Below, piece by piece: positions 14,120 through 49,312 of a DNA stretch of 53,276 nucleotides. Source of the stretch: Helicobacter cetorum (GTDB taxonomy: Bacteria; Campylobacterota; Campylobacteria; Campylobacterales; UBA6016). The stretch spans positions 1 through 53,276 of the forward strand of contig DZAX01000002.1 of NCBI GenBank assembly GCA_022729705.1, written 5' to 3'. Position 1 is the first letter of the stretch. Every line of letters begins with the position of its first letter. The notes beneath the pieces were generated by a model. It worked only from the letters and a program-made list of their open reading frames with translations. It was not told where the DNA came from and ran no database searches. The translations under genes were made by a program, and so were the position numbers.

Positions 14120-14231
14120 ATCTCCCCATCAAATCATCCAAAAAACAGCTTAGGCTTCCAAGCTTGAGTTGACGATTGCATTTTAGGTGTCTTGTCTTGA
14201 TTATTCTAGCCAACAATGCTCTAAAAACCTA
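14120..14231 (-). mobile_element. IS 3' end remnant, near-identical to 40751-40862
   Basis: About 112 bases match the segment at 40751-40862 with only a few differences. On the minus strand it contains the last codons of a DDE transposase (FLEHCWLE then stop) and the outer end ATCTCCCC-TCAAATCATCC. The rest of the element is missing; similarity stops at the AAAACCT at 14231. It lies 20 bases upstream of recR. Confidence 0.75.
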
Positions 14232-16049: not shown

Positions 16050-16799
16050 ATGCTTCAACAGATAATAACAAAACTTCAAAGCGTCAAACAAGAGTACGGC
16101 GTAAAAATCCTCTATGCGTGCGAAAGCGGGAGCAGGGCGTGGGGATTTGAGGGGGTGGATAGCGATTATGACGTTCGGTTTGTCTATGTCAGAACAAGCG
16201 AGGAATATCTATCGCTTGAAGAGCAAAAGCCGGAGATAAACCTTGGCGTGGCGGACGAGCTGGATATTGTGGGGTGGGATTTAAGAAAGACGCTTCTGCT
16301 TTTGCAAAAATCAAATACAACCGTATGTGAATGGGCGGCTTCGCCTATCGTCTACATGGATGATGGCTTTAGGCGCAAGCTATCTTTGCTGGTAAATGAG
16401 TGTTTTTTGCCCAAAGTAGCGATACACCACTATTTGGGAAGCGTCAAGGGGTATGAGGTGGAGCTAGAGGGCGATGAGATAGAGCTAAAAAAGCTTTTTT
16501 ATATGCTCAGAGCCGTCTATACGGCGCATTTTATAGCAGAGTTTGACGTCGCCCCGCCCATAAACCTGGGAGAGCTTAGAAGCGCAATACGCCTTGATGG
16601 TATAGACGGCGAGATAGACGCTCTTTTGCAAATCAAAAGAAGCGTAGTAGAAAAAGCGACGCACAAAATATCAAAAGAGCTAAAAGAGTTTATAAAGAGT
16701 AGTTGCGCAAATCTCAAAGCATATGCTGATGGCTTACCTCGCAAAGAAAAAGCGGATATAAAATTGCTTGATAAGCTATTTTTTGAGTGCGCACGATGA
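16050..16799 (+). CDS. Predicted nucleotidyltransferase (COG3541-like), first of a coupled pair
   Basis: A 249-residue protein with the polymerase-beta-type motif SGSRAWGFEGVDSDYDVRFV near residue 25 (GS then DxD), followed by a helical C-terminal half (CEWAASPIVYMDDGFRRKL and later). It belongs to the large YcgL/COG3541-like group of nucleotidyltransferases whose substrates are mostly unknown. It overlaps the next gene, which encodes a second member of the fold, by four bases (ATGA). No effector or HEPN partner is visible, so an RNA- or protein-modifying role is only a guess. Confidence 0.8.
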   Translation: MLQQIITKLQSVKQEYGVKILYACESGSRAWGFEGVDSDYDVRFVYVRTSEEYLSLEEQKPEINLGVADELDIVGWDLRKTLLLLQKSNTTVCEWAASPIVYMDDGFRRKLSLLVNECFLPKVAIHHYLGSVKGYEVELEGDEIELKKLFYMLRAVYTAHFIAEFDVAPPINLGELRSAIRLDGIDGEIDALLQIKRSVVEKATHKISKELKEFIKSSCANLKAYADGLPRKEKADIKLLDKLFFECAR

Positions 16800-17839
16800 C
16801 GCTGTATGAACTCAAAAACTCTCAAAATATACTTTTTGAAGCGCTTAGCGGGAGTTACGCATATGGGCTCAATCTGCCAAGCTCCGATAAAGACATAAGG
16901 GGCGTGTTTTACTCTCCAAAAGAGGAGTTTTTCGGGTTTACGAGGGCTGAACAAATTAGCGATGAGAAAAGCGATATAGTCTATTTTGAGCTAGAGCGGT
17001 TTGTGTCGCTTCTGCTCAAAAACAACCCGACGGCTCTGGAGCTGCTAGCCACGCCAAAGGATTGCGTCATCTACAAAAGCCCGCTGATGGAAAAGCTCAA
17101 AATAGAGAATTTTCTCTCAAAACTATGCAAAAACAGCTTCGCTGGATATGCGACCGCTCAAATCAGAAAAGCAAAAGGGCTAAACAAAAAAATCAATAAG
17201 CCGCAACCGGAAATCAGAAAAAGCTTTTTTGATTTTTGCTACTGCGTGGATGAGGGCAAATCCATACTTCTTTCAGAGTGGCTGGATAGATACGGCGTAA
17301 ACCAAGAACAATGCGGACTAAGCGCGCTAAATCACTTTCAATACTGCTACGCGCTCTATGTGGGCGATGGATACAAAGGCGTCTGCAAAAAAGAGTCCGC
17401 CAACGAGCCGCTTTTGTCCTCTATCCCAAAAGGCAAAACACCCCAAACAATCATGACCTTCAACCAAGACGCATACACGCTCCACTGCAAAGAGCACAAA
17501 GAGTATTGGGAGTGGGTAAAAAACAGAAACGACGAGAGGTATAAGACAAATATAGAGGTCGGCAAAGAGTACGACACCAAAAACATGATGCACACGATAA
17601 GACTCCTCAAAATAGCAAAAGAGATAGCAGAGTATGGCGAACTTAGAGTAAGGCGCGAGGATAGGGATTTTTTGCTTAGTATTAGGGCCGGCAAATATAG
17701 CTACGAGGAGCTTTTGAATATGGCGGAAGAGCTTGTAGCCCAGGCCGAGGAGGCGTTTGATAAAAGCTCTTTGCCGGACGCACCGGATTATGAGGCGGCG
17801 GAAATGATTATTGTTGAGATAAGAAGCGGTTTGTACTAG
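16796..17839 (+). CDS. Predicted nucleotidyltransferase (COG3541-like), second of a coupled pair
   Basis: A 347-residue protein from the ATG at 16796, which overlaps the previous stop. It has LSGSYAYGLNLPSSDKDIRG near residue 17, again GS then DxD, followed by an ELERFVSLLLKNNPTALELL helix typical of the group, and a long extra C-terminal region. It shares the fold but not the length of its upstream partner. The two may form a heteromeric enzyme or act successively on one RNA substrate. A fragment of the 3' hairpin repeat begins at its stop codon. Confidence 0.8.
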   Translation: MTLYELKNSQNILFEALSGSYAYGLNLPSSDKDIRGVFYSPKEEFFGFTRAEQISDEKSDIVYFELERFVSLLLKNNPTALELLATPKDCVIYKSPLMEKLKIENFLSKLCKNSFAGYATAQIRKAKGLNKKINKPQPEIRKSFFDFCYCVDEGKSILLSEWLDRYGVNQEQCGLSALNHFQYCYALYVGDGYKGVCKKESANEPLLSSIPKGKTPQTIMTFNQDAYTLHCKEHKEYWEWVKNRNDERYKTNIEVGKEYDTKNMMHTIRLLKIAKEIAEYGELRVRREDRDFLLSIRAGKYSYEELLNMAEELVAQAEEAFDKSSLPDAPDYEAAEMIIVEIRSGLY

Positions 17840-17870
17840 CTGATGTTGCGCACAAGTGCTAGCAAGGCGA
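17839..17870 (+). repeat. Partial copy of the two-hairpin 3' repeat
   Basis: Immediately after the stop codon, CTGATGTTGCGCACAAG matches the 5' end of the repeat at 48708 (CTGATGTTACGCACCAA). The remainder is degraded, with no clean hairpin left. Confidence 0.45.
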
Positions 17871-17964
17871 GTATAATAAAAAAACGGCGGTCTCCCGTTA
17901 TGAAAAAAATACTGTCAAGTTTCACTACGTTACACCATCCCATTTAAAAGAGTAGCATAATAGG

Positions 17965-28254: not shown

Positions 28255-28274
28255 ATATATTCGAGTAGCTTTAT

Positions 28275-28340
28275 AAGAGGAGTCGGAACATTTTATATCT
28301 TTGCCACCAATACGGGCTTTGCTCGTATTGGTGGCAAACA
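28275..28340 (-). repeat. Copy of the two-hairpin 3' repeat, behind fabI
   Basis: Read on the minus strand it starts at the fabI stop codon. TTTGCCACCAATACG pairs perfectly with CGTATTGGTGGCAAA (15-bp stem, loop GGCTTTGCT on the plus strand). A weaker second stem (GATATAAAATGTTCC region) follows. The loop sequence is the same as in the copy at 38030, while the stem differs by a compensated base pair. It may act as terminator or RNA end for fabI. Confidence 0.75.
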
Positions 28341-28341
28341 A

Positions 28342-29881
<1,540 letters not shown>

Positions 29882-32308: not shown

Positions 32309-32735
32309 AATGCCGGTTATGATGAGCGAGAGCGAAGAGGCAAAAATCAAAGAGATATTGGCGAAGGCTAAAAGTATAGCGATTATCGGTCTATCGCCGG
32401 ATGAGACAAAAGACAGCAATAGGGTAGCAAAATACTTGATAGCCGCCGGATACGAGGTGATTCCAGTGTATCCAAAAGAAGAGACGATACTTGGGCAAAA
32501 AGTGTATAGAAGCGCTGGCGAAATAGACAAACCTATCGACATAATCAATGTTTTTAGAAAAGGCGAATTTCTAGCTAGCGTAGTGGATGAGGCGAAAAAA
32601 ATATCACCAAAGCTAATATGGGGTCAGATAGGATGCTACGACGATGCGGCAGAGCAAGCCGCAAAAGATATGGGGCTAAATATCGTGACGCATAGATGTA
32701 TAATGATAGAGCATAGAAAATTTTTTGGAAAATAG
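32298..32735 (+). CDS. CoA-binding domain protein (YccU family)
   Basis: A 145-residue Rossmann-type CoA-binding protein: AIIGLSPDETKDSNRVAKYL near residue 30, VIPVYPKEETILGQKVYRS, IDIINVFRKGE and LIWGQIGCYDDAAEQAAKD, ending with IMIEHRKF. It resembles succinyl-CoA synthetase alpha-chain CoA domains, as in the YccU family, whose role is unclear. The ATG at 32298 follows AAAGGAG and lies within the last codons of trmA. The 96-bp tandem array starts 16 bases after its stop. Confidence 0.88.
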   Translation: MECKMPVMMSESEEAKIKEILAKAKSIAIIGLSPDETKDSNRVAKYLIAAGYEVIPVYPKEETILGQKVYRSAGEIDKPIDIINVFRKGEFLASVVDEAKKISPKLIWGQIGCYDDAAEQAAKDMGLNIVTHRCIMIEHRKFFGK

Positions 32736-32750
32736 ATGAACCATCTAATT

Positions 32751-33197
32751 GATTCTCACATTTTGAGCAAAGCCCAAAATGAGGTCTTCAGCAGACGGCT
32801 CTCGCGACTAGTCGCTCTTAAAAATTCATGTTTAATCAGGGGATTTGATTCTCACATTTTGAGCAAAGCCCAAAATGAGGTCTTCAGCAGACGGCTCTCG
32901 CGACTAGTCGCTCTTAAAAATTCATGTTTAATCAGGGGATTTGATTCTCACATTTTGAGCAAAGCCCAAAATGAGGTCTTCAGCAGACGGCTCTCGCGAC
33001 TAGTCGCTCTTAAAAATTCATGTTTAATCAGGGGATTTAATTCTCACATTTTGAGCAAAGCCCAAAATGAGGTCTTCAGCAGACGGCTCTCGCGACTAGT
33101 CGCTCTTAAAAATTCATGTTTAATCAGGGGATTTAATTCTCACATTTTGGGCAAAGCCCAAAATTAGCTCTTCGTGCGGTGAGGGCTCTTGCGACTA
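32751..33197. repeat. Tandem array of a 96-bp repeat: four full units and a degenerate fifth
   Basis: Units start at 32751, 32847, 32943, 33039 and 33135, an exact 96-base period; the first four are almost identical. Each has a hairpin (CATTTTGAGC, AAA, GCCCAAAATG with one mismatch), then GGTCTTCAGCAGACG, then the 12-base palindrome GCGACTAGTCGC, then TTCATGTTTAATCAGGGG. In the fifth unit the first stem is a perfect GGGC/GCCC pair. 96 is divisible by three, so a 32-residue repeating frame stays open, but the solitary copy at 1788 is not open, so it is not a gene. It lies between two convergent genes and ends on the kinase stop codon. Confidence 0.95.
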
Positions 33198-34631
33198 GTT
33201 GGCTTCTCGCCGCAACTCTATGACAAACCTAGCACCGTCGTCTATATTTTCTACACTTATTCTGCCTTCCATGTTGTTTTCTATGATGGTTTTCGCCATA
33301 TACAGATCTATTCCCGTTCCTTTGCCGGGTTCTTTGGTGGTGAAACTGGACAGTTGATAATATTTAAAAACACTTGCAAAAGCTCGTTTTCATAGCCGTA
33401 TACCGACACTTTATCGTCTATCTCTACGCAAAGCTCCGTGTTGTGCGCCTTTAGCACCGCCAATACAAGCTCGCAAACTCTGGATACTGCGTTTTTTAGA
33501 TTAAACACACTTTTTTTTGTGTCAGGCTTAAAAAACTTCCTAAAATCGTCTATCGTGTGGCTCATATAGTTGATTTGCTTCATGGACGCAAAGACCATAT
33601 TGTCTATATACTCTTTGTTTACCTCTCCATAATTCCACGCCATTTTTACGTCTTGCACGGCTATGGCGAGCATATTCAAGGGTTGTCTCCACTGATGCGC
33701 TATGTTTGCTATCATCTCGCCCATGGCGGCTTGTCTTGATTGCTTGATTAGAATAGCCTCTTTTTCTCTATTTTTTTGCGTCTCTTTTTTGACCAACCCC
33801 GTTAGGTTTTTATTTATATATCTCCCCGTGCCACTCTCCGGCAAGCACAAGAGTGTTCCACATAGCGATATAGAAATCTTTGTTGTGCATTCCGGATGAG
33901 AAAATATTTGGCTTTTTACACAAAACATCTTTTTCGCTATACCCAAAGACACGCTCTCCGGCTTTGTTTATCATAATGATTTTGTTGTCAAGGTCGGTCA
34001 TAAAGACGGCTTCGGTTGTGCTTTTGATGGCGGCGTAGGCTAGTTCTAGGCTTGCTTGTTTTTCTTTGATTAGTCTATCTTGTTCGTCGTGCTTTAGGAT
34101 TACGCCGACAAGAGAAGCACCTGTTTTCAAAAGAAGCTTATGAAAAGAGGAGGGTGGCATATGCACAAACGACGATAAAGCAAAAGAGCCGCAAGCCGCA
34201 CCGCCCTCGTTTTTAATAGGCATAGACCAACAAGCGCAAAGGTTAAAATCATACGCTAAAGTTCTAAGGTCACACCATCTATCGTCTGTGAAAGTATCCT
34301 TGACGTATATCGGCTCATTTCTAAATACGGCGTTTGCGCAAGAGCCGCCGCCGGGACCGGGCTTTAGGTTTTGCAAAGCGTCTATGCCCTCTTGCGGTAC
34401 GCTGGGGGCTGAGACGACGCTCATGAACCCTGCCTTATCGTCTTTTAGCATGACGGACGCTACTGAGTTTGGAAGAGCCGCCTCGGTCATTATGCATAGT
34501 TTGTCTAGCGCCTCTTGTTTGCAAAAACTAATCGCCGCCACCAGCTCCAAAATGGCTTGTTGCATACCAAGAAGCTCTTCAAACTGATGCGGTGATATTG
34601 GCGTCTCATCTTTATGCCGATTATCCGTCAT
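33195..34631 (-). pseudogene. Sensor histidine kinase (GAF-PAS-HisKA-HATPase), frameshifted and internally deleted
   Basis: The first part (34631 to about 33820) has a GAF domain (about residues 20-165) and a PAS domain (VFMTDLDNKIIMINKAGERV) and runs out at 33810. The next frame carries the coiled-coil and H-box AAMGEMIANIAHQWRQPLN and the N-box FLNIIN; the shift lies in the A/T-rich run near 33815. At about 33350 the frame changes again: the middle of the ATPase domain is missing and the end resumes as TTKEPGKGTGIDLYMAK and FVIELRREAN. About 50 residues including the DxGxG loop are lost, so it cannot phosphorylate. No response regulator is adjacent. Confidence 0.8.
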
Positions 34632-38001: not shown

Positions 38002-38029
38002 TATACCAGCTCCTCTCTCCCGCGAATGT

Positions 38030-38106
38030 GGGTAGCTTTAGGGGGTCGCAAGGGACATTCATGTCCTTTGCCGCCAAAACGGGCTTTGCTCGTATTGGTG
38101 CGTAAC
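38030..38106 (-). repeat. Copy of the two-hairpin 3' repeat, behind uppP
   Basis: Read on the minus strand it begins at the uppP stop: CTGATGTTACGCACCAATAC, then a loop GAGCAAAGC and the arm CCGTTTTGGCGG, then the second stem AAGGACATGAATGTCCCTT and ACCCCCT. It aligns over its whole length with the copy at 48708. No T-run follows, so it is not a classical terminator. Confidence 0.8.
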
Positions 38107-38107
38107 A

Positions 38108-38872
38108 TCAGTGTAGGATATACAAAAATGCGGCGCCCAAAACGATTCTGTATACGCCAAACGACACAAAGCTAAACTTTGCGACAAACTTCAAAAACCA
38201 CTTGATGGCTAGCATCGCCACAAAAAAGGCGGTGATAAATCCGGCGGCTAAATTTGAGAGGTCTCCGCCTCCAAAATCTGAAAAGTTTTTTAATGTGTCG
38301 TATCCTGTGGCAATCACCATCGTAGGAATCGCAAGCAAAAACGAGAACTCTACCGCTGTTTGTCTATTGAGTCCTGTGAGCAAACCGCCTATTATCGTGG
38401 CGCCAGAGCGGCTTGTCCCCGGAACCATCGATATGGATTGGGCAAGACCTATCAAAAACGCCTGTTTGTAGCTAATCTCTTCTATATGCCGAATATGATG
38501 CTCTTTTTCTCTATAGAAGTACTCCAACGCAATAAACACGATTCCACCCGCAATCAGCATAAAGGCGACAGTCTCGGGCGCAAAAAGAGCCTTTATATGT
38601 TTGTAAAACAAAAAGCCAAGAACTCCGGTAGGTAAAAAAGCGACAAATAGCTTTTTGGTAAGCGAAAAGTCGGAAAAAAGTTTTTTGAAATACAAAAAGA
38701 TAACGGCGCATATAGAGCCTAGCTGTATGGAGACCTCAAAACTTTTGTGTACGGCGGTCTGTTCTATGCCCATCAAATGCGAAGCCAAAATAAGATGCCC
38801 CGTCGAGGATATAGGCAAAAACTCTGTGAGTCCCTCCAAAATTCCAAGTATGATAGCGTCAAAAATCCCCAT
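38108..38872 (-). CDS. uppP: Undecaprenyl-diphosphatase
   Basis: A 254-residue membrane protein from the ATG at 38872 beginning MGIFDAIILGILEGLTEFLP with ISSTGHLILASHLMG, the E-xxx-E / STGH motif of UppP (BacA). The second motif SISMVPGTSRSGATIIGGLL lies near residue 160. It removes a phosphate from undecaprenyl diphosphate and so recycles the lipid carrier for wall synthesis; it also gives bacitracin resistance. A longer start at 38938 would add an unrelated hydrophobic stretch. It follows the decayed AEC gene directly. Confidence 0.92.
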   Translation of the reverse strand: MGIFDAIILGILEGLTEFLPISSTGHLILASHLMGIEQTAVHKSFEVSIQLGSICAVIFLYFKKLFSDFSLTKKLFVAFLPTGVLGFLFYKHIKALFAPETVAFMLIAGGIVFIALEYFYREKEHHIRHIEEISYKQAFLIGLAQSISMVPGTSRSGATIIGGLLTGLNRQTAVEFSFLLAIPTMVIATGYDTLKNFSDFGGGDLSNLAAGFITAFFVAMLAIKWFLKFVAKFSFVSFGVYRIVLGAAFLYILH

Positions 38873-38874
38873 GT

Positions 38875-39536
38875 CTACCCCAAATAATAAAATAACGGAA
38901 CAACCGCAAACGAAGCAAAGATTCCAAGCGCCACGCAAGAAACCGCCAGTTTTTCATCCAACTTATACCGTGCGGCAAATACCGCTACCATTACCATCGG
39001 CGGCATAGCGGCTTCTATGAGAGCCACTTTTGAGGCAAGTCCAAAAAGCGGCAAGATAGCCAAAACGGCTAGCGGTACAATGCCTATTTTGACGACTAAT
39101 ACGGCGGTTGTCGCGGTGATATTCTCTTTTATATGCTTTAGCCCTATCCTTCATCCTAACCGCTATACTCACAAGCGGCAACAGCGTAGCTGAGAGCTTG
39201 CCAGCGCCGACCATCGCAAACTCGGGAATCTCAAACGGCTTGAGAGCCAAAGAGAGCAAAATAGCGATAAACGGCGGATGAGGCTCTTTGTAGCTTGAGT
39301 GCGCGGGAAAGCAAAAAACCGACAAAAAATCCAAGAATTATCGAAAATATAGCGATAGGCACAATAGACAAATCTGAAATATTTATTTTTAAAGGGTGTA
39401 ATTTTTCTAAGATAAGAGCCGGAAAAGCTACAAAAATACAAAAGTGTATAAGAGCGTCCGAATAGTCTTTATGGGCTATTTTGATAGAGTAACCGATGAT
39501 TAAAAAGTAAAAAATTAAAAAAACACCTTCAAACAT
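38875..39536 (-). pseudogene. AEC-family permease, internally deleted and frameshifted
   Basis: Three frames carry successive parts of an auxin-efflux-carrier-type transporter: N-terminal helices to about 39297 (FEGVFLIFYFLIIGYSIKIA ... LLSRALKLQ), a middle part at about 39300-39146 (PPFIAILLSLALKPFEIPEF ... LSATLLPLVSIAVRMK), and a last part to 38875 (ITATTAVLVVKIGIVPLAVL ... AAMPPMVMVAVFAARY). The total is about 220 residues against roughly 310 in the family, so about 90 residues are lost at the first junction and a base shift occurs at the second. Non-functional. Confidence 0.8.
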
Positions 39537-40750: not shown

Positions 40751-41042
40751 ATCTCCCCCTCAAATCATCCAAAAAATCAGCTTAGACTTCCAGGCTTGAG
40801 TTGACGATTGCATTTTAGGCGTCTTGTTTTGATTATTCTAACCAACAATGCTCTAAAAACCTAGCTAAAACACCAAATGATAAATGACTAGCAACCTTGG
40901 CGGCACCTTTGACATAGATGTGTCTGCATCCAAATGAGTCCTTGAGATAGGAGTTAACCCGTTCAACAAAACTTCGGTGATTGTAGTGATTGCTCATAGG
41001 GGGTAATAAAGCCCATCTTTTCAAGTATTCTTTATCCCTCAA
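40751..41042 (-). pseudogene. IS4/IS5-superfamily DDE transposase, C-terminal remnant with element end
   Basis: The minus strand encodes the last about 50 codons of a DDE transposase (FVERVNSYLKDSFGCRHIYV, then GAAKVASHLSFGVLARFLEH), ending with HCWLE; another frame just upstream holds PRNCEETKIAIEG, also typical of these transposases, so a frameshift has occurred. The outer end (40751 onward) is shared with the remnant at 14120-14231. The rest is gone. Confidence 0.75.
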
Positions 41043-48347: not shown

Positions 48348-48707
48348 ATGACGGTATTTCATAAAATTCTAAGAGGCGATATACCTTGCTCAAAAGTGTA
48401 CGAAGACGAGTATACTTTGGCTTTTCACGATATAAATCCAAAAGCTCCGATTCACATACTTGTAATTCCAAAAGTTTTTTCAAAAGATTTTGGGGACGTG
48501 GATAATGAGAGTTTGACGCACATGGCAAAAGCGGTCAGAGAGGTCGCAAAAATAACGGGGCTGAATGAAAGCGGCTATAGGCTAATAAGCAACATAGGAA
48601 GCGACGGCGGTCAAGAGGTGCCTTATATACACTTTCATATTTTGGGCGGCAAAAAGCTCAAATGGACTCATCTAGTAGATGAGATGGAGAGCCATAAGGC
48701 TATGTAA
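48348..48707 (+). CDS. hinT: HinT-type histidine triad protein
   Basis: A 119-residue HIT protein of the PKCI/HinT branch: TVFHKILRGDIPCSKVYEDE at the start, AFHDINPKAPIHILVIPK, and VPYIHFHILGGKKL with the triad. HinT hydrolyses purine nucleoside phosphoramidates. AAGGAGCTTCGACA precedes the ATG. Divergent to pheS in the arrangement known in the phylum. A hairpin repeat starts right at its stop codon. Confidence 0.92.
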   Translation: MTVFHKILRGDIPCSKVYEDEYTLAFHDINPKAPIHILVIPKVFSKDFGDVDNESLTHMAKAVREVAKITGLNESGYRLISNIGSDGGQEVPYIHFHILGGKKLKWTHLVDEMESHKAM

Positions 48708-48783
48708 CTGATGTTACGCACCAAAACGAACTTGTCCGTTTTGGTGGCAGGGACATAAATGTCCCTGCACCCCCTGAAGTTAC
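48708..48783 (+). repeat. Copy of the two-hairpin 3' repeat, behind hinT
   Basis: It starts right after the hinT stop: CTGATGTTACG, then the first stem CACCAAAACG / CGTTTTGGTG (10 bp, loop AACTTGTC), the second stem CAGGGACA / TGTCCCTG (8 bp, loop TAAA), then CACCCCCTGAAGTTACG. This is the best-preserved copy. No T-run follows. Confidence 0.85.
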
Positions 48784-48847
48784 GAAAACTTTTGTTTTCG
48801 AGAATTATATGGTTTTTTTGCTCTTTTTTTTATAAAAGTACGTATTG

Positions 48848-49312
48848 CTACCCATTACAACAACCGCCTACATCTTCAGTCAAATACTCGCTTCCCACTT
48901 TTGCTATTTCGACCTTGTCCGCTATAATCTTGCCGTTTAGAAGTATGGAGTAGCTCATATCTATACAGTTTCTTACGCTATTCATCGTAGAACAATAGGT
49001 CTCCACGCTCGCCATCACCCATCTTTTTACTATAGTCTCATCTGCTTCGCAAGCTACATCGTATACAAAATGCGCGGAGTTAAATTTTTTTGGAAAATCC
49101 TCGTTTCTGCAATACTCAGCGTCCATCGAAAAACTCTTTAGCGCCACGCCGTTTTTGTCCGCCATACTCACTATGTCTACACCCGAACACGATATAAGCC
49201 CAAGCGCAAAATACTCCAAAGGCGTAATCTCTTTTGGGTTGATAACAAAAGAGCTGTTTGCCGCCTCGATCATAAACTGCATGCCCTCTGTGTGTAAAAT
49301 TTTGACTTTCAT
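48848..49312 (-). CDS. OsmC-family peroxiredoxin-like protein
   Basis: A 154-residue OsmC/Ohr-type protein: the helix PLEYFALGLISCSGVDIVSM with the first reactive cysteine near residue 42, and the second region VETYCSTMNSVRNCIDMSYS. The end is cysteine-rich (VGGCCNG). The family reduces organic hydroperoxides. The ATG at 49312 has GAGGAG upstream. Convergent with hinT across the hairpin repeat. Confidence 0.85.
   Translation of the reverse strand: MKVKILHTEGMQFMIEAANSSFVINPKEITPLEYFALGLISCSGVDIVSMADKNGVALKSFSMDAEYCRNEDFPKKFNSAHFVYDVACEADETIVKRWVMASVETYCSTMNSVRNCIDMSYSILLNGKIIADKVEIAKVGSEYLTEDVGGCCNG

Follow-up and report, generated by a model that had tools for sequence, protein, structure and literature searches.

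The window analysed here, a stretch of 53,276 nucleotides from Helicobacter cetorum, carries a hairpin-forming repeat that lies against the stop codons of several genes. Does this repeat serve the 3' ends of mRNAs, or is it mobile DNA, and why does it lie where genes stop? The original prediction described two hairpins in the sense orientation of the preceding gene and argued for selection on an RNA structure, with a mobile REP-like unit among the options. In all probability the repeat is a MITE, which would be moved in trans by a DDE-type transposase and would persist where it is least harmful.

All four places named in that prediction hold copies of the repeat that lie far above chance, and the copies abut the stop codons of hinT, uppP, fabI and a nucleotidyltransferase gene (Table 1).

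Table 1. Copies of the repeat in the window, with their parts and neighbouring genes
Feature	Position	Strand	Remarks
MITE copy 1, subfamily A, after hinT	48708..48850	+	copy as first noted at 48708-48783
Left terminal inverted repeat of copy 1	48708-48720	+	
H1 of copy 1	48719-48746	+	
H2 of copy 1	48747-48768	+	
Linker of copy 1	48769-48782	+	ACCCCCTGAAGTTA
H3 of copy 1	48783-48800	+	
H4/right end of copy 1	to ~48850	+	decayed
7-mer TATGTAA	48701..48707	+	candidate left target copy; TAA is the hinT stop codon
MITE copy 2, subfamily B, after uppP	38015..38111	-	left end, H1, H2, linker, H3; match first delimited at 38032-38111, longer extent with H3
MITE copy 3, subfamily B, after fabI	28265..28344	-	decayed; H1 intact, H2 broken
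Left-end fragment	17840..17871	+	CTGATGTTGCGCAC..., directly after TAG stop codon; without remaining structure
hinT-like gene	48348..48707	+	HIT domain (Pfam)
uppP gene	38108..38938	-	BacA (Pfam)
fabI gene	28342..29163	-	enoyl-ACP reductase (Pfam)
RlaP-type nucleotidyltransferase gene	16787..17839	+	Pfam

The right end of copy 1 was placed by comparison with two further copies (C40:66452 and L152), and its right target copy is not recognisable. The genes end on the repeat in different ways. In hinT the native TAA is retained directly before the CTGATG of the element, and this TAA is kept in relatives without the element. The stop codon TGA of uppP is supplied by the element's CTGA, and the same codon is a TAG or TGA stop in two relatives. 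In fabI the end of the element brings the stop forward by two codons compared with relatives. Stem 1 reads CCAAAACG/CGTTTTGG at 48708 and CCAATACG/CGTATTGG at 28275. This compensatory change is real, as claimed, but it is not a simple one-step pair, since the two copies come from separate subfamilies whose loops differ. The 38032 copy is indeed an intermediate, with one side changed to leave a T.T mismatch. Structure was preserved only in part: the 28265 copy retains only hairpin 1, and no significant fold was found in the fragment at 17840-17871 (z 0.04). At the Rfam gathering score only a tRNA matched in the window, and the repeat had no match. Other repeats were also seen in the window. A tandem array with a 96-nt repeat (AGAGCGACTAGTCGCGAGAGCCGT..) at 32653-33228 belongs to a second palindromic family that has many copies in the genome and often adjoins the MITE. 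The two copies of a 92-nt repeat (14140-14231 and 40772-41036) are probably insertion sequence remnants, since the second continues into a weak match to DDE_Tnp_1.

The unit is larger than the two hairpins described before. It continues into a third hairpin and, in full copies of 110-151 nt, into a fourth and a right terminal repeat. H1, H2, H3 and often H4 lie between terminal inverted repeats CTGAYNTTACGCA...TGCGTAANRTCAG of 13-15 bp, the two ends being inverted repeats of each other. On the plus strand, from the left end to the right, YTGATGTTAYRC is followed by H1, H2, a linker, H3 and GGAGAR. H1 has 12-13 pairs and the loop GAGCAAAGC or GAACTYGTC; H2 is GCARGGACATAAATGTCCCTGC, with variants that include GGGGCTAATCGCCCC; the single-stranded linker between H2 and H3 is CCCCCTRAAGCTAC; and H3 takes the form CCCGC..GCGGG, CCGGC..GCCGG or CGAAAAC..GTTTTCG. 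In full copies H4 follows GGAGAR, and the right end is GCGTAAGGTCAG or GCGTAACRTCAG. The unpaired linker CCCCCTAAAGCTAC is kept across genera. The TGATG motif is equally conserved with a sense or an antisense left neighbour, and thus belongs to the element. Of 146 own-genome copies, only 9 have a strict right end, so that most copies here are recognised by the core and the left end; the majority in this genome are old, and their right ends have decayed. In some copies an additional hairpin module (CCCATCGCC..GGCGATGGG) is inserted between H2 and H3 (L014:1561-1600 and L147). A 49-nt solo palindrome (L272, C16:55823-55871) consists of H1 with a terminal repeat on each side and is a minimal form of the unit. 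The MITE core also occurs in tandem arrays (L012 and L165, at C16:15.9-16.1 kb and C41:7.0-7.3 kb), the C16 array having a period of about 87-89 nt.

As the original prediction had proposed, the genome and its relatives were scanned with a covariance model, built from 26 own-genome copies. The scan found at least 150 copies in the 2.19 Mb of the window's genome, nearly all at E<1e-8. The family makes up about 1% of this genome, and 144 of the 146 mapped copies are intergenic. Using the same model, we found 20 and 14 copies in two sister species. In a sample of 298 genomes of the phylum Campylobacterota, 54 had matches, and these belong to 18 of 59 genera. Four other genomes contain the terminal repeat 57, 101, 57 and 61 times, and the backwards control 0 times. 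Plasmids gave one copy, in Sulfuricurvum kujiense; phages gave no match, and viral contigs none for the 17-base linker.

The ends, the target duplication and its consensus, the copy number, the empty sites and the spread across genera are all direct observations. The 7 bases left of CTGA were compared with the 7 bases right of TCAG in 17 full units that have the core. They match at 0.731, and shuffled pairings of these units match at 0.471 (sd 0.039, maximum 0.605). Among lengths 2-12 only 7 stands out. For 42 exact-end inverted pairs of all MITE types from several genera, the 7-bp match was 0.816, compared to 0.515 (sd 0.021) after shuffling (z about 14), and lengths 2-6 and 8-12 were null. 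The direct repeat has the consensus TTANTAA and is perfect in 18 of the 42 pairs; one perfect duplication, TTATACA, lies in the window's own genome (L212, C6:43918). Insert types from 76 to 435 bp have the same ends, which is expected if one transposase moves them in trans. We also found sites that are empty in the sister species G002. At C15:15938 the 144-nt insert is missing there and the gene ends at the same codon, and the C40:112420 site is empty as well. Similarly, the unit is missing behind hinT in two relatives. There are also shared sites (C74:56119 with L147, C42:93007 with L150), which indicates that part of the family predates the species split. Two copies at orthologous places in G002 have changed stems that are still paired.

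Related inserts were seen in other genomes. In G076/G147, a 269-bp MITE has the same ends and perfect 7-bp duplications (L385, L388, L393, L399), and its nearly identical copies indicate recent activity. A 165-bp type is also present there, and its 435-bp copy (L387) holds a further insert. In G197 an RNase HII gene lies between two MITE copies (L407:449-1234), which is possibly a composite unit.

According to the mechanism that we propose, a DDE-type transposase acting in trans would recognise the ends CTGAYNTTACGCA and insert the unit at an AT-rich TTANTAA, duplicating 7 bp of the target. Copies would persist where they are least harmful, directly behind stop codons or just upstream of ribosome binding sites, and the stop codon would be supplied by the target (TAA) or by the element's own TGA. 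The transposase type, its action in trans and selection as the cause of placement are what we infer. Judged by ends and target duplication, the transposase would be most like the ISPepr1 subgroup of the IS4 family, which has ends YT-AA-YTT---A, a 7-8 bp duplication and an AT-rich target (PMC2266710). The MITE agrees with it at 6 of 8 specified end positions, in ends that begin with YT, in the 7 bp and in the AT-rich target; two end positions disagree, and no such transposase was found beside MITE ends. An autonomous copy or a transposase with these ends was not found in the genomes searched, and this counts against the MITE reading. So do the strict right ends, few in the window's genome, and the paired, changed stems at the orthologous G002 sites, which decaying junk would not need. 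DDE_Tnp_1 is absent or fragmentary in most carriers; the partner transposase may be extinct or may reside on unsampled mobile DNA. Several candidates were rejected. Terminal-repeat pairs 0.8-7 kb apart (G000, G147, G197, G076) enclose ordinary genes, the DDE_Tnp_1 genes of carriers do not have these ends beside them, and the IS605 copy at C48 has different ends.

Known bacterial MITEs include Correia elements, ERIC, RUP and BOX (reviewed in PMC10969869). Like these, the repeat is short, non-coding and intergenic, has terminal inverted repeats, a target duplication and about 100 or more copies, and would form hairpins as RNA. Unlike them, it has a 7-bp TTANTAA duplication, CTGAYNTTACGCA ends and a hairpin core that is common to several genera and has covarying stems.

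How are the stems maintained in a mobile element? Most pairs of H1 and H3 are found in three or four Watson-Crick types (135 and 130 copies), and H2 is less variable. Among 26 copies, 6 pairs have changes on both sides, and the covariation score was reached by no shuffle. Stem changes could be made without selection by replication template switching between the hairpin arms (quasipalindrome correction), a described mechanism that creates and maintains perfect stems in one event (PMC8794818). This would add to the MITE reading, and we give it somewhat less than an even chance. It agrees with stems that differ among copies yet remain 89-95% Watson-Crick, and with untranscribed (divergent) copies that are equally well paired. 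However, template switching alone explains neither the conservation of the linker across genera nor the asymmetry of the strands. Outside two consensus sites, plus-strand A.C mismatches (minus-strand G.U) outnumber G.T by 109 to 41, and A.C prevails at 17 of 21 informative sites (p 0.007, with sites not independent of shared ancestry). This indicates that the minus strand, and not the mRNA of hinT, uppP or fabI, folds better. The lean holds in five other genomes. It is the same in all contexts (sense 23:12, antisense 38:13, convergent 24:8, divergent 15:3), so the better folding of the minus strand is independent of host transcription. In the uppP copy, the sense strand folds with z -1.5 and the antisense strand with z -3.6. 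The alternative to template switching for stem upkeep is selection at the level of the element. The hairpin core might itself have a function, as a structured RNA or as single-stranded DNA from the minus strand, and be selected across genera on interchangeable MITE ends; for example, it could be needed for transposition or be a transposon-borne small RNA. We regard such a working core as rather unlikely.

Using a simple codon-usage caller, not a standard annotator, we called genes on both sides of 131 own-genome copies. Of the 70 copies whose left neighbour is a sense gene, 53 begin at -39 to +10 of its stop codon. Among these, 22 begin at -4, in which case T-TGA or T-TAA from the element itself forms the stop codon, and 5 begin at -3. 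Where the left neighbour is an antisense gene, 35 of 61 copies begin no more than 30 nt from its start codon (mostly 14-30 nt), just upstream of the ribosome binding site. The link to stop codons is real, but its cause appears to be mechanical: TAA in the target, the TGA that one frame of the terminal repeat encodes and the small distances between genes bring the element into contact with stop codons without an mRNA signal. The claim of a sense orientation failed the test set for it in advance. Between co-directional genes, 33 copies are sense and 48 antisense (p 0.12, in the wrong direction), and in five other genomes (65 copies) the numbers are 23 and 22. The common sense orientation of the window copies is a small-sample effect. 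Convergent intergenic regions are occupied more often than divergent ones (37 vs 13, p 0.0009), which is what an avoidance of promoters would produce.

These data also bear on a functional RNA structure at mRNA 3' ends, whether a stabiliser, a protein site or a terminator. Such a role would account for the strong covariation in H1 and H3 (partial in H2), the compensatory changes in orthologous copies, the contact with stop codons and the preference for convergent over divergent regions. We nevertheless consider it very unlikely. It is opposed by the missing orientation bias, by the A.C excess with the same lean in all four contexts and by the weaker fold of the uppP sense strand. Nor was an intrinsic terminator (G+C-rich hairpin with T-run) found at 48600-48950. 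Strong as the covariation is, the better pairing belongs to the strand complementary to the three mRNAs, in transcribed and untranscribed contexts alike, and selection on host mRNA 3' ends is thus not supported.

Less credible still is a repeat of the REP/BIME type that a RAYT (Y1/HUH) transposase would move as single-stranded DNA, although the mobile REP-like unit of the original prediction came close: the repeat is mobile, but as a MITE. GTAG/CGTC REPs with RAYTs were reported in epsilonproteobacteria (Sulfurovum), and their termini often give neighbour genes stop codons (PMC3733652). The repeat shares this with them, being palindromic, of high copy number and intergenic at gene ends; one of its strands pairs better, and the minus strand has GTAG next to H3. 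REPs, however, are single hairpins of 20-40 bp, whereas the MITE is longer, with three to four hairpins, true terminal inverted repeats and 7-bp duplications. Among strong carriers, 14 of 25 have Y1_Tnp genes, a higher share than in the whole genome sample (70 of 298), but the other 11 have none at E<=1e-8, and one of these, G289, holds at least 16 copies of the repeat. This genome's one intact RAYT (C17) has a different repeat, GGGTGTCAGGCACTC, in its flanks, and the MITE was not found in the flanks of the RAYT-like genes on C17 and C72. Y1 transposition leaves no target duplication. Thus, the 7-bp duplications refute RAYT as the main mode. The GGGTGTCAGGCACTCTTTTAT repeat at 1750-1776 of the window also stands in the flanks of the C17 RAYT gene; probably it is the REP of that RAYT. 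An attC-like site was rejected, because the end motifs do not follow the R''/R' arrangement.

A description of the family was not found in the literature searched or in Rfam. Apparently, this is a mobile element of an ordinary kind, with an unusually well kept hairpin core, that was not described before. Strong stem covariation is usually taken as proof of a selected RNA, and here it occurs in a mobile DNA repeat. The family is therefore a clean case for testing template switching against selection, and it gives a mechanical reason for the position of such repeats on stop codons.
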